Below, piece after piece: positions 29,439 to 38,709 of a stretch of DNA of 64,000 bases (within the stretch, counting starts at the first letter, position 1; the number at the start of each line of letters is the position of its first letter). A program made the translations under genes and the position numbers. The stretch lies in the NCBI RefSeq assembly GCF_900103485.1, contig NZ_FNHW01000001.1:3369057-3433056 (forward strand), read 5' to 3'. The notes beneath the pieces are model-generated. The model was not told where the DNA came from, did not search any database, and saw nothing but the letters and a program-made list of their open reading frames with translations. This stretch comes from Fictibacillus solisalsi. Its GTDB lineage: Bacteria; Bacillota; Bacilli; Bacillales; Fictibacillaceae.

Positions 29439-31946
29439 TTACTGCTCTTTGGAATAGTCAATTAAATTCGTAAAGATCCGGTATCCGCCCGGTACATTGT
29501 TTTGAATTTGGCGATACCATACAAGATTGGTATACAGATAGCTTCCTTTTCCATAGTCCGCCATCAAAATGCCGCCGGTAAACGGCTTCTCGCCGGGGTC
29601 CGCCATGCTGACAAACGTCTCAAAATGGTCGTCCCAATCACTTGTGTAATAGAGGCCCCGCTCTTGCACCCAATGATCCCAGTCGCTGTCGGTGATCTTG
29701 TTTGGCGTATTAAATAAAGGATGTTCCGGCTTTGTCACCGTTACCTTTGCATTCTCATCCGTCACCCTCCAGCGGATGGACGGGCTGCCGATCACGAGCT
29801 TGTACGGAGCTGATTTTTCAGCCTCCCACTTGTCTTCCGGCTTGTGGTATTGAACCACCAGATGACCGCCGTTTTTCACAAAATCAAGCAGCTTGCTGTT
29901 ATTTTGAAGTAAATCCTCTCTCGATAGGTATGCCCTTATGCCGACCACAATCGTGTCAAATTGGGAAAGGTCCGCAGATTCCAGCTTGCCTTTTTCAAGG
30001 GAGACGACGTTCATTCCTACCGCACGCAGCTTATCGGACACGCTGTCAAATCCGCTTTCCACATAGCCGATTTTTTTGCCAGCATCAAAGTGCAACGGAA
30101 AAGCGGTTGCTTTCGTTCCCGCATCGTATAAATAATAGAAGGTTCCAATATGAGGATACGAGATATCCTGAACCGATGTGCTCAACTGTTTCCCGTTGAC
30201 CCTGACTTCCGGCTTGAGGGTGTAATCATCCTCTTTTACCGAATGAGGAAGGTCTACAGTAAACGTGGCATTTTGGACTTCGCCTTTCTTCTGGAAGGTG
30301 ATCTCCTGATCATTGTTGGTCACGTTCCAGCCTTCCGGGGCATTAAGATGCAGCACCGCTGTTTCTTTTCCGGCGGTGTTATTTTTCGCTTCCACCTTCA
30401 CCTGGATGGAATCTTTAAGATCTGCGGTATTGACCACCAGGCTCTCCGGATCATTTTTGACTGATACATCCGGCAAGACTGCTGCTGTCTGTTCAGGTTC
30501 ATACGTTTTTTGAGCGGTTGTGCCATGAACCTTATAGCTAATACTCGCCGAGATGACAGAAGGATCATACGGCTGATAATAAGATGCATTCTTCGCAACC
30601 TTGATGCCATACGTGAATTTTTGCGATTGGCCGCGCTTCAGTTTCGTTTTTGGTACATGCCCCACCTGTTTCCAGCCAGTTGGCAAGTGAAGGGCTGGCA
30701 TCACATGTTTGAGCGTTTGTTTTCCGTTATTTTGTACAGTGACGGTGACTCTCGCAGAGCCGCCCTGAACAAGTACAGGCTGGTTGAGATCCACACGCAC
30801 ATCAATCTTGGAAGCTTCTGCAGCTAAATCCATAAGCTGTTTTTCTTTCCTATCGAGACGGAAAAGCAAATCACTCTTTGTCTCTGTTGGCAGCGAGCTG
30901 TTTTTTACAAGCTTCTCCAGCTTTTCGGTCTGTTTGATGGCTGGATATACATCCTCGGCAATCGCCGCTCTGTTCGGATATTCCTCAATCATTCCCTCGA
31001 ACTCTTCCTGCAGCTTTACCAGATTCTTCTTCACACGCTTATCATTGACCGTGCCGGCATACTCTTTAAAATCATAAGGAATCTGATCAAACAGGGTTTG
31101 TTCTTTTCCCGGTGTCCCCACTCTGGATTTCTCGAGCTTTAAATTGATGGTTCTTGGTGCAGCTGGAATGTCCTGGCCCATCCCCTGGCTTTTGTGAAGA
31201 AAACGGGATTCTTCCCCAATTTGCGGATAGGTTTTGCCATATACGTCATCCATCATGCCGATTTCAAAGGAAGTGGTCGCATTTTTCTGGTCGGAAGGCA
31301 AATAAAGCTTCTTGATGGCCCATGGCTTGAGCCCTTCTTTCAGCTGCTCCGGAAACACACTGGGATCTGCAGCATCCTGATAAGCCTTGACCGTCAGATA
31401 ATTCATTGTTCTGTGGTGGCCGTGCTCCGTATCCACATCCAAAAACGAAGGCATGACAATATCCGGACGGTATGTACGAATCATGCGGATGACCCGTTCA
31501 TAGGCGGTTTGTTCTCCCCATTTCGCCAGCGTTTCTTCTTTTGATTTGGAGAATCCAAAGTCGTAAATCTCATCGCTCGGTTTGCGGCTGAGGTGGTAAA
31601 CCGTTACCCCTGTCACTTTTGAGGCTTCAATCAGTTCTCTTGAACGAATGATGCCGAGCGCATTTCCGAGCTCGTTACCGATTTCATTCTGTCCCCCTTC
31701 TCCCCGGTTCGCGATCAGGCTCGCAGTCCTTACCCCTTTTCCACGGGATAAGTAGGCAAGCAGGTCGCTTCGCTCATCGTCCGGGTGGGCACCTGTATTG
31801 AGGAAACTGATGATGGTATCAAGAGGTTTTAACGCACTCCATAGATCTTTGGGCTTTTCACTTGCTTTTTGTTCCTGTGCACTTGCAGGTACCATCAGGG
31901 CAGAGGTCAGCAGGACAGACATTATAACTGCCATGAAACGTTTCAT
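29439..31946 (-). CDS. Secreted PIG-L (LmbE) family deacetylase with NEW3-like and ThuA/GATase-like domains
   Basis: An 835-residue exported enzyme. Signal peptide at 1-23 (VPASAQ cleavage site). The PIG-L zinc domain (about 43-300) has Ala-His-Pro-Asp-Asp-Glu at 53-58 and His-Gly-His-His at 175-178, the expected metal ligands and base, so it should remove an N-acyl group, classically from a GlcNAc derivative. Residues about 385-600 hold two beta domains of the NPCBM-associated NEW3 type. Residues about 610-835 form an alpha/beta domain like ThuA or class I amidotransferases, with GGHLVVQYH. It is first after the ROK repressor in the operon, so it may trim the substrate outside the cell before uptake. 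Confidence 0.85.
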   Translation of the reverse strand: MKRFMAVIMSVLLTSALMVPASAQEQKASEKPKDLWSALKPLDTIISFLNTGAHPDDERSDLLAYLSRGKGVRTASLIANRGEGGQNEIGNELGNALGIIRSRELIEASKVTGVTVYHLSRKPSDEIYDFGFSKSKEETLAKWGEQTAYERVIRMIRTYRPDIVMPSFLDVDTEHGHHRTMNYLTVKAYQDAADPSVFPEQLKEGLKPWAIKKLYLPSDQKNATTSFEIGMMDDVYGKTYPQIGEESRFLHKSQGMGQDIPAAPRTINLKLEKSRVGTPGKEQTLFDQIPYDFKEYAGTVNDKRVKKNLVKLQEEFEGMIEEYPNRAAIAEDVYPAIKQTEKLEKLVKNSSLPTETKSDLLFRLDRKEKQLMDLAAEASKIDVRVDLNQPVLVQGGSARVTVTVQNNGKQTLKHVMPALHLPTGWKQVGHVPKTKLKRGQSQKFTYGIKVAKNASYYQPYDPSVISASISYKVHGTTAQKTYEPEQTAAVLPDVSVKNDPESLVVNTADLKDSIQVKVEAKNNTAGKETAVLHLNAPEGWNVTNNDQEITFQKKGEVQNATFTVDLPHSVKEDDYTLKPEVRVNGKQLSTSVQDISYPHIGTFYYLYDAGTKATAFPLHFDAGKKIGYVESGFDSVSDKLRAVGMNVVSLEKGKLESADLSQFDTIVVGIRAYLSREDLLQNNSKLLDFVKNGGHLVVQYHKPEDKWEAEKSAPYKLVIGSPSIRWRVTDENAKVTVTKPEHPLFNTPNKITDSDWDHWVQERGLYYTSDWDDHFETFVSMADPGEKPFTGGILMADYGKGSYLYTNLVWYRQIQNNVPGGYRIFTNLIDYSKEQ

Positions 31947-31961
31947 GAATCCATCTCCTTT

Positions 31962-33164
31962 TTACAGCTCTTTAAGTACACTTTCCGTTTCCCTAAGCAC
32001 AAGCGATACAGCACCGACAACCCCGAGGTTTTCTCCCAAAGCTGTGGGAAGCACCGGGGCCGATACCGAAGCAAAATCTTGGATCGTCTTCTGGATCCTG
32101 GGCAAAAACCAATCTGCACTTCTTGAAATGCCACCTCCTAAAAGAACAACTTCAGGATTTATAATTGAAATCATGTTGGCAACAGCAAATCCAATATGAT
32201 CAATTACCTCGTCAATGACCCTTACCGCCGCCTGGTCTCCATCCTTTGCCTTTTGAAAAACATCTTTTGCGGAAAAGTTATTTGGAAAGAGCGGCTCTGG
32301 CTGGCCTTTCATTTCCTGCTTCATGCTCTGAACGATTCCGGCTCCCCCCACATATTGTTCTAAAAAGCCGTATCCCTCATGTGGTGGCGGAAGGTCTGCA
32401 CTTCTCGCTTTAGCCATATCCGTAACCATATAGCCGATTTCGCCTGCAGCCCATGTAGCTCCTCGGTATAGCTGGCCATTGATCAGCATGCCGCACCCCA
32501 CTCCAGTACCAATGGAAATGAGCACTACATGTTTCATCCCTTTGGCGGCACCCAGCCATTGTTCGCCAAGGACAGCCACATTCACATCGTTATCCACCAT
32601 GACCGGCCAGGGAAATAAAGCCTCTGCCTCTTTTTTTAACGGGTACTGGCTCCAGCTCAAACTAGGAGCATCAATTACTACTCCTCTATCTGCATCCGTC
32701 ATCCCGGGCGCGCCAATGCCCATTCCCAGGATGTCATCAGGCTTGAGGGCAGCGTTTTTCAAAAGCTTGTCTACATTTTGTTTCAATGCTTTCAAAAGTG
32801 TTTTCTTTTGGGTTTGCGTAGGAAATTCATCGACGGCAAGCGGTTGACCAATGAGATCACAGATGCCTGTCCTTACCTTCGTGCCCCCCATATCGATTCC
32901 GATGACGTGAGCTGCCCTGGAATTGAACACAAGCTGGATGGGCTTCCGCCCGCCGGCCAGGCCTGCACTTCCCGGTCCGACTTCTTTCAGCCAGTTTTCC
33001 TGAAGAAGTTCCTCCACAAGGGCAGAAACAGTCGGTTTGGACAGATGAAGCTGATCTGCGACCTCAGAGCGGGAGATCGGCCCATTTTCTTTTACACAGC
33101 GGAGAACATTTCGTTTGTTCTTTTCCTTCATTATGGCGATCCCGCCCTTGTGATTGGATTTCAT
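31962..33164 (-). CDS. ROK family transcriptional repressor (XylR/NagC type)
   Basis: Sugar-responsive repressor, 400 residues, with an N-terminal winged helix (NGPISRSEVADQLHLSKPTVSALVEELL, about 30-57) and a C-terminal ROK kinase-like domain. The latter has DMGGTK, the ROK signature around VDNDVNVAVLGEQWLGAAKG and GTGVGCG. The usual zinc Cys cluster is absent, so it is not a kinase. ATG at 33164 follows AAGGAG. It heads the deacetylase/transporter/lyase operon and probably controls it together with itself, through an operator at the promoter. This points to a carbohydrate-derived inducer. Confidence 0.9.
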   Translation of the reverse strand: MKSNHKGGIAIMKEKNKRNVLRCVKENGPISRSEVADQLHLSKPTVSALVEELLQENWLKEVGPGSAGLAGGRKPIQLVFNSRAAHVIGIDMGGTKVRTGICDLIGQPLAVDEFPTQTQKKTLLKALKQNVDKLLKNAALKPDDILGMGIGAPGMTDADRGVVIDAPSLSWSQYPLKKEAEALFPWPVMVDNDVNVAVLGEQWLGAAKGMKHVVLISIGTGVGCGMLINGQLYRGATWAAGEIGYMVTDMAKARSADLPPPHEGYGFLEQYVGGAGIVQSMKQEMKGQPEPLFPNNFSAKDVFQKAKDGDQAAVRVIDEVIDHIGFAVANMISIINPEVVLLGGGISRSADWFLPRIQKTIQDFASVSAPVLPTALGENLGVVGAVSLVLRETESVLKEL

Positions 33165-33247
33165 CACTTCTCTCCTTTTATTTGGTTTTCTTTTTATAAA
33201 TGGGATGATGCCTCTTGATGTGGAAGTAAAAGGGGATAAAAAAAATG

Positions 33248-33538: not shown

Positions 33539-34549
33539 TTAAACTCTTTTCGGAGCCAGTTCAACTGCCTGGCGAAGCGCCTCGGTCATGCTTTTTTCAT
33601 CCGCAATACCTTTTCCGGCGATATCAAAGGCCGTTCCATGATCCACGCTCGTACGGATGATTGGAAGCCCAACAGTGATGTTGACGCCCGCATCGAGTCC
33701 AAGCACTTTTACCGGTCCGTGTCCCTGATCATGGTACATGGCCACGACGATATCGAAGTCACCTCGAACGGTGCGGAAAAACAAGGTGTCAGCAGGAAGC
33801 GGGCCGACGGCTTTAATGCCTTCTTCCTGTGCTTTTCGTACTCCGGGGATTACTTTTTCCTCTTCTTCTCCATAGCCAAACAGTCCATTTTCCCCCGCAT
33901 GCGGGTTAATGCCGCAAACCGCGATTCTTGGTGTTTCAATTCCCGACTTTTTCAATGTATCATGAGCCAGTTTGATGACACGATACACTCGTTCAGGATT
34001 GATCATCTTCACCGCATCCAGGATACCAACGTGAGTGGTCACATGGATGACTTTTAAGTTCGGTGCAGAAAGCATCATGGAGAATTCGTCAGTGTTGGTC
34101 AATTCGGCAAGGATTTCGGTGTGGCCAGGATACTTGTGGCCGCCTTTATGCAATGCCTCTTTATTAAGAGGTGCGGTACAGATGGCATCGATTCTCTTTT
34201 GGTTGGCAAGATCGATGGCTTTGCTTAAATATTCGAACGCCGCATGTCCTGCGATGGAGGAAACTTCTCCTACCGGCAAATCTCCAGGGATAAGATTGAG
34301 ATCAAGGCAGTAGACAGTCCCAAACTGAAAATCAGGGTTATCCAGTTCTTCCTCTGTGATCGTTTGGACGGCAAGCTCGCTGTTCACATAGCCTTTTGCA
34401 CGTTCCAGTATTTTTGCATCACCGATAACAAACGGTGCACAAAGATCATAAATTTCCTCGTGAGCGAGACTTTTTAAGATAATTTCCGGTCCAACCCCCG
34501 CTGCGTCTCCCATCGTGATTCCGACAATACTTTTATGATTTTGACTCAT
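33539..34549 (-). CDS. pdxA2: PdxA2-type 4-phosphoerythronate/threonate dehydrogenase
   Basis: PdxA-family NAD-dependent dehydrogenase, 336 residues. Metal-binding His residues lie in HKYPGHTEIL and in AMYHDQGHGPVK, with GVNPHAGENGLFG-type sequence (GINPHAGENG). Its start lies inside the DUF1537 kinase gene (17-bp overlap). This pairing is established for D-threonate and D-erythronate catabolism. The kinase makes the 4-phosphate, and the PdxA2 enzyme oxidises and decarboxylates it to dihydroxyacetone phosphate. It is therefore unlikely to be the pyridoxine-pathway PdxA. Which acid is used cannot be decided here. Confidence 0.87.
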   Translation of the reverse strand: MSQNHKSIVGITMGDAAGVGPEIILKSLAHEEIYDLCAPFVIGDAKILERAKGYVNSELAVQTITEEELDNPDFQFGTVYCLDLNLIPGDLPVGEVSSIAGHAAFEYLSKAIDLANQKRIDAICTAPLNKEALHKGGHKYPGHTEILAELTNTDEFSMMLSAPNLKVIHVTTHVGILDAVKMINPERVYRVIKLAHDTLKKSGIETPRIAVCGINPHAGENGLFGYGEEEEKVIPGVRKAQEEGIKAVGPLPADTLFFRTVRGDFDIVVAMYHDQGHGPVKVLGLDAGVNITVGLPIIRTSVDHGTAFDIAGKGIADEKSMTEALRQAVELAPKRV

Positions 34550-35834
34550 ATTCCAGCACCTCTCCTGTCATGTATTTCAATGCGTGCACCAAAGACTGTT
34601 CATTTCCAAATCCGCCAGCCTTGGTGACCGCCCAATATTCACTGTTTTCGTTGCTTAATTTGCCGATCGGCAATCCTGCCTCTATTTCGGAGCGGAGCTC
34701 CATCCTGTCCATGCCGAGCTCTGAGCATACCGCCTTGGCTGTATCTCCTCCAGTTAGGACCAGTCCCTGTATAGCAGGGAACTCATTTAAAAGGCTTCGG
34801 GCAATCCGGCCAAGCTCTCTTGAAATGGCTTCACCAATCTGATTCTTGTCCATGTTCAGCTGAACACTGAGTTCTTCTGCCGCTTTTCTATTCTCCTCGC
34901 AGCTGTCCACATAAAGGAGTAAATGCTTTTGTTGCTTCTTTTGCTTGACCTCATCCACAATCGTCTGCACATCATATGTTTTTTGGATAAGGTCGGCAGG
35001 ATCCATTTCGATCCTTCCAATGTCATTCATTTCTTTTACCCTGGAAAGCTGGGTTTTTGTTGTCCCCGACAGGCTGGCAGAAACGGTCAGGGTTTGCGCG
35101 ATTTCCCTTGCTTCTTCATTCGCTTCTTTTGGAGGTTTCAGGCCAAGCGCATCCGGGAGGTATTCAATCAATCCTGCTGATCCCGCCCATAGCGTCTTTT
35201 TTTGGAAGGAAGCAAAGACAGCTGCTGTTTTCTTTAGATGCTCTTCGGTTTTTGCATCACAGACAAACCATGTTTTCTCTTCATCCAGCGCTTGAGCGAC
35301 AGCTGCTTTGACCTCAGCAAACGGTCGGGATAACAACTGTGTATCGACCGTTTGAACCTGACCAGTGGCATGCCCCTGAAGGAGCGTGGGAATATGGCTC
35401 TCGGTCACTGGCGTTTTTGGGTCTCTCCCAAACTCCGTTTTTTCCACCGGCTGTCCGCCAACAAACAGAGTGCCGTTGATCGTCTGCCTTTTGAGCTTCG
35501 GGAAGGCCGGGGAAATCACCACTATTTCCGGCCTGTAGCCGTCACTTACGGCTTTCAGCTCGGATCCAATATTCCCCCTGAGGGTAGAATCCATTTTTTT
35601 ATATACATGAACATCCTCCCTGTTTTCAAGAAAGGAAACTGCCTGCCGTGCGCGGTCATATGCTGTTTTTTCCTGTATCGCCCGGCTGTCCGTATCATAA
35701 ATCACCACATCAGCCGGATCTTCTTCTCCCCGGGAGGCATCAAACCAAACGTTGGACCGAAAGCCCTGTTTTGACAATTGCACACCAGAATCATTTGCGC
35801 CCGTGAGATCATCCGCCAGTATAAATAATTGCAT
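34533..35834 (-). CDS. Four-carbon acid sugar kinase (DUF1537 family)
   Basis: ATP-dependent kinase for D-threonate or D-erythronate, 433 residues. The N-terminal substrate domain starts LFILADDLTGANDSGVQ with the conserved Asp-Asp-Leu-Thr-Gly-Ala-Asn-Asp. The C-terminal nucleotide-binding domain has GLVLTGGDTAKAV and ends with an extended GGFGNEQSLVHAL. It lies between the permease gene (34 nt) and the dehydrogenase gene (overlapping), so transport, phosphorylation and oxidation are encoded together. AAGGGG precedes the ATG. Confidence 0.9.
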   Translation of the reverse strand: MQLFILADDLTGANDSGVQLSKQGFRSNVWFDASRGEEDPADVVIYDTDSRAIQEKTAYDRARQAVSFLENREDVHVYKKMDSTLRGNIGSELKAVSDGYRPEIVVISPAFPKLKRQTINGTLFVGGQPVEKTEFGRDPKTPVTESHIPTLLQGHATGQVQTVDTQLLSRPFAEVKAAVAQALDEEKTWFVCDAKTEEHLKKTAAVFASFQKKTLWAGSAGLIEYLPDALGLKPPKEANEEAREIAQTLTVSASLSGTTKTQLSRVKEMNDIGRIEMDPADLIQKTYDVQTIVDEVKQKKQQKHLLLYVDSCEENRKAAEELSVQLNMDKNQIGEAISRELGRIARSLLNEFPAIQGLVLTGGDTAKAVCSELGMDRMELRSEIEAGLPIGKLSNENSEYWAVTKAGGFGNEQSLVHALKYMTGEVLEYESKS

Positions 35835-35868: not shown

Positions 35869-36849
35869 TTAATGTGAGACGTTGACTTCTCGCCGGGTGT
35901 TTTTCTTTTGTGTGCGTTTAGCCAGCCATGCGGTCAGGATTGGCGTAAGAATAGCGGTTACAACAACCGCTGCAGTCACCTGCAGTGTCGCAACAGCCGC
36001 AACCTCTTTATATCCTGTAAATACGGCAGCCACTGCCAATGGCACCGCAGAAGCGTTGCCGGCTGTAGATGCAGCTGCTACCCCTGCTACCCCATCGCCG
36101 CCGGTAATACGGTCTGCTAAGAAAAGAACAATGCCTGTGATAAGAACAACACCCAATCCAAGGATAATTCCGGATGCTCCGGCCTGGACCACCTTGGTTA
36201 AATCAATACCCGCACCAAGTGCAAGGGAAAACAGTGGAATAATTACATCTGAAGCCTTGCTTAAGAATGTACGCATGTCTTCGTCCAGATTTCCAAGGAT
36301 CATACCGAGAATCAACGGAAGGATGGCAAAGACAAATGCCAATAACGGGAAGCTGGCGAGACCCGCCACCCCAAGAATCAACATCGTAAAAAATGGTCCT
36401 GACTCCAATGACATAATGGAATAGGCTGCGACGTCTTCATTTTTCTTGCCGAGCTGGCCCATTAATGCCATGTACAATCCACCATTTGTATCCGAGAAAG
36501 CGGCTACAATCGCAAGCGCGGAAAGTCCTAGAAATAAATGATTCTGATCAGGAGCGAGAGCTTTGATCAGCAACGCCACTATAAGAGCGGTTCCAATTTT
36601 ACCAACCCATAGGGATACTCCCTTTTTCAATATATAGCCAGTTGCCTCAAATCGAATGGTTGAACCGAGACACACATAAAACGCTGCCAATAACGCCGAA
36701 GTTCCTGTTAATAATCCACCCGTAAAGGAGCTTTTGAATTCCGGCAAATCAAACAGTTCCGGGAAAAATGTTTTTATTAATGCACCAATAAGCAATGGAA
36801 TCAACATCATGCCGCCGGGAATGCGTTCAATCGTTTGTTTAATCTTCAT
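35869..36849 (-). CDS. KdgT family acid-sugar permease
   Basis: A 326-residue secondary transporter of the 2-keto-3-deoxygluconate permease family with about ten helices and many Gly/Ala, beginning [21 protein letters not shown]. In this operon the cargo is probably a four-carbon acid sugar (threonate or erythronate) rather than KDG, since no KDG kinase or aldolase is present. GGCGGGG precedes ATG. First gene of the catabolic operon, behind the cre/palindrome promoter. Confidence 0.88.
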
Positions 36850-36872: not shown

Positions 36873-36887
36873 GTTTAAATTTTAAAC
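36873..36887. promoter_or_regulatory. 15-bp palindrome, proximal to kdgT
   Basis: GTTTAAATTTTAAAC, an inverted repeat of GTTTAA arms around three bases, in the 5' leader 24 bp before the permease start. A near-identical partner lies 105 bp away. Probable operator of the adjacent PrpR-like regulator. Confidence 0.6.
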
Positions 36888-36900
36888 AATTAATTTTTAT

Positions 36901-36914
36901 AGAAAACGTTTTCA
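36901..36914 (-). promoter_or_regulatory. CcpA cre site
   Basis: TGAAAACGTTTTCT on the minus strand matches the cre consensus at every position and is palindromic. It starts 7 bp after the -10 box, a position suited to repression by CcpA when preferred sugars are present. Confidence 0.8.
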
Positions 36915-36920
36915 CCTATG

Positions 36921-36950
36921 ATAATAAACCTTATGCATAAAAAAATGCAA
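36921..36950 (-). promoter_or_regulatory. SigA-type promoter of the acid-sugar operon
   Basis: TTGCAT and TATTAT at 18-bp spacing, between the two 15-bp palindromes and just upstream of the cre site. No -24/-12 SigL (sigma 54) motif (TGGCAC-N5-TTGCW) is visible. Confidence 0.5.
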
Positions 36951-36977
36951 GAGCAATGTTTAAATTCAATAAAAATA

Positions 36978-36992
36978 GTTTAATTTTTAAAC
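36978..36992. promoter_or_regulatory. 15-bp palindrome, distal to kdgT
   Basis: GTTTAATTTTTAAAC, differing by one base from the proximal palindrome. It sits about 28 bp upstream of the -35 box. A half site GTTTAAATTC lies between, near 36958. The centre-to-centre distance of 105 bp is ten helical turns. Confidence 0.6.
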
Positions 36993-36993
36993 A

Positions 36994-37024
36994 AAAAAAG
37001 AAGCTGAATTATTTTTTCAGCTTC
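36994..37024 (-). terminator. Terminator overlapping the end of the regulator gene
   Basis: GAAGCTGAA and TTCAGCTTC pair and include the stop codon. On the minus strand TTTTTTT follows. It separates the regulator transcript from the operon promoter. Confidence 0.75.
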
Positions 37025-38709
37025 CTCCATAAGGTGGCACGGGTAATTCCCAGACGCTTGGCGGCCCGTGTTTGATTATATTCTTCTTCTTTTAAGACGA
37101 GATGAATGATTTTCTCTTCAATTTCATTCATGGTTCCCTGCAGCAGATGAGAGACATCCTTCTCATCACTTGCCTCATTCTGCCTCAATAATCCGAGAAC
37201 TGCTTTTTTTTCCAGACTGTAGCCTTTTTCTTTGACTACCGCATCCTTAATCAGGGCCTTAAGCTGTGACACATTTCCTCGCCAGTCGTACTGCACAAGC
37301 TGTGAAAGGGCATCTTCTTTGATCCGGATGGCTGTCGTACCCATTCTCTGGTGAAAACGGGCCATAAAATAAGAGACAAGTTCGGGTATATCCTCTCTAC
37401 GTTCCCTGAGGGCCGGTACCCTTATTCTGTTAAGGCTGTCATGATACAGCAGGCTGCTCCATCTTTCTTCGTTCGAGGTCAGGGAAGCAATAACCAAAAC
37501 CCCGGATTTGCTGATCTCCATTACCTTTTGAATGAACGCTTCAGCCTGGATTTCATTCAGCCTGTGAATCGAATGGATATAAACGGTCGCGATAGCGTGA
37601 TCGAGTGATAATTCCTGCAATGTCAAAACATCACTGGCGGAAATGGATGAGAACAATCCTTGAGATCCAAATTGCAGATAATGAACATACTGTGCCAGCA
37701 GCCTTTTGCCTGTCCCTCTTTCTCCAAGCAGCAGCAGGGGGTGAGAAGATTTATACGACGAGGCTTGCTCCACACATTCCATCATCGCCTGACTTTGATG
37801 AATCAGGAATGGCCGGTGAGCAACGGTTTGAACCTCCAACTGGTTTTTGCCACTCGAGGATGTTGTCCGTTTCACCAAAAACAAGAGAAATTCTTCCTCT
37901 CCGATTGAGATGAAATGAACCGAAAGATGCAGCTGTTCTTCCTCCTGCTGAAGAATATGGTGATAGGTTTTACCAGGGGTATATTCCGGCGCCTGCAAGC
38001 TTTCAAGCAGTTGATCGCTAAGTGGACGAGCAGAAAATGTATCCCAGTTTTCATATAAAATGGCGCCTTCTTTTGATAGAACCATCCAATCTGGCGCAGC
38101 GAGCGTGAGGACCGCCCGCTGCAGCTCTGTTTCCTGAATTTTTTTCTGCAGCACCTGATGCATGGTGCTGGCCCTCCCGAAAGCATCCATAATGGCTTCC
38201 TTGCCAGACTGGATTAAAATCCCGGTTATTCCATTGTGTGCAGCCGCATTGACAGTTACCACATCCCCCATGATCAGCTCATACCCTTCCCGCTTCAGCC
38301 GCTGTACAAGGGGAATGGTCTCCTTTTCTGTTTCAATGGTGAACACTTCAATCGAAATATCCAGCACGTCTGTGATTGCCCTGGCACCGAGTGTAATGTT
38401 TGAGAAGCCGACAATGGCTTTTTTTCCGTTAAAATCATTGGCCAATGTTAATACGCGAAGCATGTCGTAACCGGAAACGTGAACATCGATAACAGGAATC
38501 CCCACTTCGTCCTGTATCAGTTTAGCCGTGCCTCCACGGCTAATGATCACCTCATAGCCTTCCTTTTCAGCCTTCCTGGCGATTTCCACACCTTCATGCA
38601 AATTTCCGATTTCAATATGTACATCCAGCTCATCCTGCTCGCTGGCGCTGTTTTCTATTAAATTTTTCATGGTGGCATACGGAGCCACGAACAGTGTTTT
38701 AATTTTCAT
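37009..38709 (-). CDS. PrpR-like regulator with degenerate AAA+ domain, no GAFTGA
   Basis: A 566-residue regulator. The N-terminal PrpR/XylR-type sensor domain (about 1-185) has SRGGTAKLI and VIDVHVSGYD. A PAS-like region (about 195-285) is followed by an AAA+ domain (about 305-490) with Walker A GERGTGKRLL (near 325) and RIRVPALRERREDIPEL. A Fis-type helix-turn-helix ends the protein (RAAKRLGITRATLWRKL). The segment between Walker A and B is short and lacks GAFTGA, the SigL-contact loop, and the B region is degenerate. It is therefore probably a SigA-type regulator. It sits just upstream of the acid-sugar operon, whose substrate or phosphorylated intermediate is the likely signal. Confidence 0.85.
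   Translation of the reverse strand: MKIKTLFVAPYATMKNLIENSASEQDELDVHIEIGNLHEGVEIARKAEKEGYEVIISRGGTAKLIQDEVGIPVIDVHVSGYDMLRVLTLANDFNGKKAIVGFSNITLGARAITDVLDISIEVFTIETEKETIPLVQRLKREGYELIMGDVVTVNAAAHNGITGILIQSGKEAIMDAFGRASTMHQVLQKKIQETELQRAVLTLAAPDWMVLSKEGAILYENWDTFSARPLSDQLLESLQAPEYTPGKTYHHILQQEEEQLHLSVHFISIGEEEFLLFLVKRTTSSSGKNQLEVQTVAHRPFLIHQSQAMMECVEQASSYKSSHPLLLLGERGTGKRLLAQYVHYLQFGSQGLFSSISASDVLTLQELSLDHAIATVYIHSIHRLNEIQAEAFIQKVMEISKSGVLVIASLTSNEERWSSLLYHDSLNRIRVPALRERREDIPELVSYFMARFHQRMGTTAIRIKEDALSQLVQYDWRGNVSQLKALIKDAVVKEKGYSLEKKAVLGLLRQNEASDEKDVSHLLQGTMNEIEEKIIHLVLKEEEYNQTRAAKRLGITRATLWRKLKK

Follow-up and report, generated by a model that had tools for sequence, protein, structure and literature searches.

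The stretch of DNA analysed here (the window, 64,000 nucleotides of Fictibacillus solisalsi) carries a regulator gene (37009-38709, minus strand) and, next to it, an acid-sugar operon. The first operon gene (35869-36849, minus strand) encodes a KdgT-family acid-sugar permease (Pfam KdgT, 2.6e-110). It is followed by genes for a DUF1537-type acid-sugar kinase (34533-35834, minus strand), for which the best model was D-threonate kinase with a score below its cut-off, and for a PdxA2-type 4-phospho-acid-sugar dehydrogenase (33539-34549, minus strand), whose match to the D-threonate model also fell below the cut-off. This kdgT/dtnK/pdxA gene content is kept in the families sampled. In Fictibacillus, the fourth gene encodes a NagC/Mlc-like ROK regulator (31962-33167), and the operon continues with a PIG-L deacetylase with NPCBM-associated domains (29439-31946). 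In E. coli, D-threonate is taken up by a KdgT permease (PMC10079672), and the combination of kdgT, DUF1537 kinase, and PdxA2 points to a four-carbon acid sugar as the substrate, with D-threonate as a candidate example.

An intrinsic terminator of the regulator gene (36996-37028, minus strand) separates this gene from the operon promoter. Directly after it lies the upstream operator O_U (36978-36992, no strand assigned), an exact palindrome with the sequence GTTTAATTTTTAAAC (GTTTAAAAATTAAAC on the coding strand of the operon). The kdgT-dtnK-pdxA-ROK operon therefore has its own promoter, predicted to be of the sigma-A type. Its -35 box TTGCAT (36945-36950, minus strand) was inferred from alignment with equally placed TTGC boxes of relatives, and an 18-bp spacer separates it from the -10 box TATTAT (36921-36926, minus strand). 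A predicted CcpA site (cre, TGAAAACGTTTTCT, 36901-36914, no strand assigned) matches the consensus and spans approximately +1 to +14, in agreement with the cre near +1 described in the first-pass annotation. The leader operator O_L (36873-36887, no strand assigned), a second exact palindrome (GTTTAAATTTTAAAC; GTTTAAAATTTAAAC on the coding strand of the operon), lies between the cre and the ribosome-binding site. With their centres at about -71 (O_U) and +34 (O_L) from the predicted start, the two operators flank the promoter, one upstream of the -35 box and the other in the leader, and are 105 bp apart centre to centre; the two 15-bp palindromes, their spacing, and their placement were all as first described.

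O_U and O_L are the only exact copies of GTTTAAWTTTTAAAC in the 4.8-Mb genome, while under a first-order Markov model GTTTAAWWWTTAAAC is expected 0.002 times per 64 kb and 0.11 times per genome. Given the local AT-rich composition, about 1e-4 exact copies would be expected in the intergenic region. Matches with up to three mismatches were not above chance in the window (11 compared to 8.2 expected), and thus only the exact pair is meaningful. A half site between the palindromes had also been noted. The sequence GTTTAAA is present (36958-36964, no strand assigned), but an alignment of five Fictibacillus genomes showed that only its AAAC (coding strand) is common to all of them, so that it is unsupported as a conserved third operator beyond these four bases. 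A better third site overlaps the -35 box, which forms its left half: a degenerate operator CTTGCATTTTTTTAT (36937-36951, minus strand), 41 bp from O_U and 64 bp from O_L. It is weak in the window genome and occupies the position of a stronger site in other genera.

The pair of O_U and O_L was kept in all five Fictibacillus genomes that have both the regulator and this kdgT. In four other Fictibacillus genomes, it precedes kdgT with spacings between the two sites of 104, 105, 104, and 104 bp, and the central bases of the sites differ. The regulator and kdgT of F. terranigra are 1.3 kb apart with a gene between them, and the sites stay with kdgT. Of two Fictibacillus genomes without the regulator, one has no kdgT match and the other only a 44% identical paralogue. 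Sites were absent from the paralogous kdgT genes of the genus, where the best matches reached 8 bits. Among the genomes of about 85,000 species, the pair pattern at a spacing of 90-120 bp was found only in Fictibacillus and at three Bacteroidota loci, the latter being tandem repeats. A search for the pair in relatives had been named in advance as the test on which its interpretation depended; the pair proved to be conserved in the genus and the motif to extend through the Bacillales. In one case (L005/L008, G005:C2:4095519-4097209), the regulator gene is split into overlapping frames (1-336 and 327-565), which is either a frameshift or a sequencing error, and both operators are intact.

According to Pfam and NCBIfam, the regulator consists of a PrpR_N sensor, a degraded AAA+ domain, and a Fis-type HTH_8. 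The presence of PrpR_N, Sigma54_activat remnants, AAA_lid_14, and HTH_8 places it in the NtrC family in the wide sense, whereas its PrpR equivalog score of 122.5 bits is far below the cut-off of 499.2. The GAFTGA loop was found in none of the 80 regulators that make up the orthologue set of the window protein; own-genome paralogues carry GAFTGA (L019, L024) or GAFSGA (L030). A Walker B motif with hydrophobic residues before DE was likewise found in none of the aligned regulators. Walker A is kept in the window regulator and was not found in 20 of the 80, and the HTH ranks with the best-conserved parts of the protein. With GAFTGA and Walker B lost, the regulator is not expected to work as an ordinary sigma54 activator. 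This suggests a sigma54-independent member of the NtrC family, which is part of the explanation favoured below. A 616-amino-acid paralogue (L009, G000:C4:1497274-1497723) with an intact Walker A and LFLDE, lacking the standard GAFTGA, is possibly another sigma54-independent or variant activator.

Orthologues of the regulator across the Bacillales are mostly 28-47% identical, and in 98 of 120 loci kdgT or a DUF1537 kinase gene follows. Where the regulator precedes kdgT-dtnK-pdxA, the intergenic regions contain 15-bp dyads of the form GTTKMA-WWW-TKMAAC. The strict pattern GTTNNAWWWTNNAAC occurred 115 times in 20 kb of intergenic DNA (5.64 per kb), compared to 0.107 per kb outside these regions at the same loci, and the letter-reversed control pattern matched once. 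The sites recur at three positions: upstream, at the -35 box (with GTTGC of the left half as the box itself), and in the leader. The site overlapping the -35 box is a weaker copy that is often present, and it is much stronger in other genera than in Fictibacillus; in its form GTTGCA-WWW-TNNAAC, C15 was kept in 52 and A13 in 64 of 83 sites from other genera. Conservation thus extends to its far half, which polymerase does not require. Most kdgT loci have a strong, conserved leader site, and about a third of kdgT loci have none that is recognisable. Elsewhere in the window genome, three strict and two one-mismatch matches lie mostly in or beside unrelated genes and none at a plausible acid-sugar promoter, and a wider regulon in this genome was rejected.

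Several loci deviate from the common arrangement. Three of the dtnK type (L061, L063, L067) have a double upstream operator, with two strong 15-mers 23 bp apart before the -35 site, and in dtnK-type loci the distance from the -35 site to the leader site is mostly 53-55 bp. For five regulator orthologues of one family (f2; L052, L054-L057), the flanking sequence retrieved contained neither kdgT nor dtnK. At a locus in another genus of the family (L035, G033:C10), a larger perfect inverted repeat (ACTAAACTGTT...AACAGTTTAGT) encloses the upstream site GTTGCAAAATAAAAC. The Fictibacillus KdgT is 81-83% identical to that of two distant families (L043, L044) and about 43% identical to most others (L042, L045-L051), whereas no such jump was seen for the kinase (~49%) or the regulator (~46%). 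The transporter gene thus appears to have been exchanged while the operators stayed the same.

A Fis site consists of a 15-bp AT-rich core bounded by G and C, for example GTTTGAATTTTGAGC (PMC4784862). By motif counts set against that description, GTTKMA-WWW-TKMAAC has the form of such a Fis-type core. Because of this fit and its adjacency, the neighbouring regulator is much the likeliest binder of the palindromes, as the first-pass annotation had predicted.

The distances between sites revealed a further regularity. We took one value per cluster of regulators sharing less than 70% identity, using a site weight matrix that was trained on part of the ladder loci and carries no spacing information. 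The distance from the upstream site to the -35 site took values of 24, 31-32, 40-41, 50-54, 62-65, 72-74, 82, and 136 bp, and that from the upstream to the leader site values of 84, 92-94, 104-105, 112, 115-117, 124-128, 134-137, and 200 bp. In round terms, the ladders run 31/41/51/62/73/83 bp and 84/94/105/116/125/136 bp, respectively. At a period of 10.5 bp, both intervals were phased (R=0.80, n=41, and R=0.73, n=30, respectively; p<1e-6). Leaving out Fictibacillus makes the data independent of the observation that prompted this test. In this reduced set, 37 of 39 upstream to -35 distances and 25 of 27 clusters for the upstream to leader distance (R=0.72) were within 2.5 bp of a rung, compared to about 48% expected by chance in either case; the best period was 10.54 for both intervals and the ladder slope 10.43-10.47 bp per turn. 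Control distances were unphased (upstream site to start codon, R 0.23; leader site to start codon, 0.31; regulator stop to upstream site, 0.24). Outliers are the distances of 112 and 24 bp and 8-bp differences. Independent changes have been few in the interval from the -35 to the leader site, where about 9 bp and not 10.5 separate the 53-55 from the 61-64 class; taken alone, the phasing of this interval was not convincing. The proposal that both palindromes lie on the same DNA face is supported by these spacings, which across the Bacillales are mostly whole helix turns although their lengths differ.

Together, these observations are best explained by repression through a small DNA loop, a reading that as a whole we consider somewhat probable. 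Dimers of the regulator would bind the 15-bp GTTKMA-WWW-TKMAAC sites at about -71 and +34 and, weakly, the one over the -35 box. Since all sites point to the same side of the helix, a single oligomer could hold them together, and the resulting loop, about ten turns long and enclosing the sigma-A promoter, would keep RNA polymerase out, repression thus being the presumed sign of control. Binding of an acid sugar or its phosphate to PrpR_N may then open the complex and permit transcription of kdgT-dtnK-pdxA, after which a dimer remaining on O_U could assist polymerase in the manner of FleQ. Carbon catabolite repression would be added by CcpA bound at the cre (+1); this predicted layer, already part of the original proposal, gained support from a cre-like box at 68 of 70 kdgT-class promoters. 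Two or more in-phase operators flank the promoter, one feature of operator-loop repression systems, and sites at the -35 box and in the leader are repressor positions, which we count in favour of this explanation. Several points count against the loop: an ATP-competent AAA+ ring is not expected from the sequence, a recognisable leader site is lacking in about a third of kdgT loci, and the phasing from the upstream to the -35 site (R=0.80) is at least as sharp as that from the upstream to the leader site, so contact with polymerase could be the constraint.

The latter point leads to the strongest alternative, a class-I-type activator that forms no loop: the regulator bound upstream would touch RNA polymerase, and the leader site would be a separate weak brake or negligible. 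Upstream sites are centred at about -61, -71, -82, -92, and -103 from the predicted start and are in the helical phase of such an activator; the ladder of CRP class I promoters is -61.5, -71.5, -82.5, and -92.5 (PMC11894529). The many loci without a recognisable leader site also fit this alternative. However, it does not account for a regulator site over the -35 box with a conserved distal half, which would block polymerase, or for the strength and conservation of the leader site in most kdgT loci. Moreover, the phase between the upstream and leader sites exceeds the product of the two separate phasings: the observed R of 0.73 compares to about 0.56 predicted from independent phasing of both intervals. 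By permutation, this excess gave p=0.0035, 0.008, and 0.029 at 70, 60, and 80% clustering, respectively, and for kdgT loci alone p=0.02-0.10, which is marginal at 80% clustering (0.097). Deviations of the two intervals are anticorrelated (-0.34 to -0.49), and one locus (L115, 24+60=84) is out of phase at the -35 site and in phase overall. The excess and the anticorrelation moderately favour a direct link between the upstream and leader sites. Of the claim that the adjacent regulator loops the DNA, the phase beyond independent phasing (p=0.003-0.03) supports the part concerning the two outer sites, while the upstream to -35 phasing fits a class-I-type activator as well. On balance, a loop around the promoter is favoured, and activation by polymerase contact appears unlikely, if still a serious competitor.

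It is also conceivable that the operators act independently, by occlusion at the -35 box and a roadblock in the leader, and that whole-turn spacing merely reflects common descent. For repression, the leader and -35 sites might suffice, and some spacing classes are shared by descent (the members of family f47 all have 116-117 bp). Against this, the spacing class has changed at least 14-16 times on the regulator tree, with at least 16 changes in the turn number from the upstream to the -35 site. Path-disjoint pairs of lineages differ by approximately whole turns, both in the distance from the upstream to the -35 site (12 pairs, p=0.0014) and in that from the upstream to the leader site (13 pairs, p=0.003), and a null model with full-period jitter gave p<=0.00005. 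We regard independent operators as improbable.

That a different protein binds the palindromes, e.g., the ROK repressor from the end of the operon in Fictibacillus, is more doubtful still and has very little probability in our view. Its gene is the fourth of the operon, and ROK sites can hold GTTT/AAAC arms. However, the site form fits a Fis-type HTH, and the roughly 10 kb downstream yielded no ROK relative in any of 12 other genomes that have the regulator and operon and keep the motif; the ROK protein was rejected as the binder on these grounds. Finally, functionless AT-rich palindromes arising by chance would agree with the unremarkable number of looser matches in the window, but the rarity expected of exact copies, and the conservation of the motif across genera with controls near zero, already refute this reading and leave it next to no probability.

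Helical phasing is usually shown by half-turn insertions in one promoter. Here, dozens of divergent loci amount to a natural insertion experiment in which nearly all survivors are on whole turns, and this natural ladder makes looping versus polymerase contact directly testable. The analysis also predicts the target motif and the regulon of a large PrpR-like family that is uncharacterised and not expected to work with sigma54. More tentatively, and with somewhat less confidence than in the loop itself, we propose that a Bacillales-wide family of NtrC type shed its sigma54 engine and that the AAA+ remnant may serve as a scaffold bridging up to three Fis-type operators in a sigma-A promoter loop, insertions and deletions surviving mainly as whole turns and thereby producing the ladder. 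In the literature searched, with most subscription journals outside its coverage, we found no description of this regulator family or its operators.

Among known systems, PrpR of Salmonella, which responds to propionate, shares the order of PrpR_N sensor, AAA+, and HTH_8. It is a sigma54 activator, and the window protein is far below the PrpR cut-off. The galETK repression loop of GalR resembles the proposed one in that two operators flank the promoter, about 11 turns apart, and differs in using a LacI-family protein with HU. At sigma70 promoters, TyrR acts through strong boxes paired with weak ones. TyrR and DhaR of E. coli, HupR, VpsR, and YplP are NtrC-family proteins with a defective GAFTGA (PMC3162934). 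They resemble the window regulator in having lost the sigma54 contact, whereas their sensor domains and target genes are different; no whole-turn operator ladder was found described for any of them in the literature searched. AraR of Bacillus subtilis represses a catabolic promoter cooperatively through two in-phase operators and a small loop (PMC4218819), providing a sugar-responsive precedent for an in-phase loop in a related host. However, AraR is a GntR/LacI chimera, and both the protein and its site are unrelated to those of the window. The closest mechanism to the proposed model appears to be that of FleQ at the Pseudomonas pel promoter, for which binding to two boxes flanking a sigma70 promoter, looping, and repression have been proposed, followed by activation from box 1 after ligand binding (PMC10723142). 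The similarities comprise an NtrC-family protein with a Fis-type HTH, a sigma70 promoter, a pair of boxes located upstream and at the start, and the proposed loop, repression, and conversion to an activator. FleQ keeps GAFTGA and its ATPase and works with FleN and c-di-GMP, whereas the window regulator has lost AAA+ motifs, carries a PrpR_N sensor, and is predicted to act through as many as three phased palindromes surrounding a catabolic promoter.
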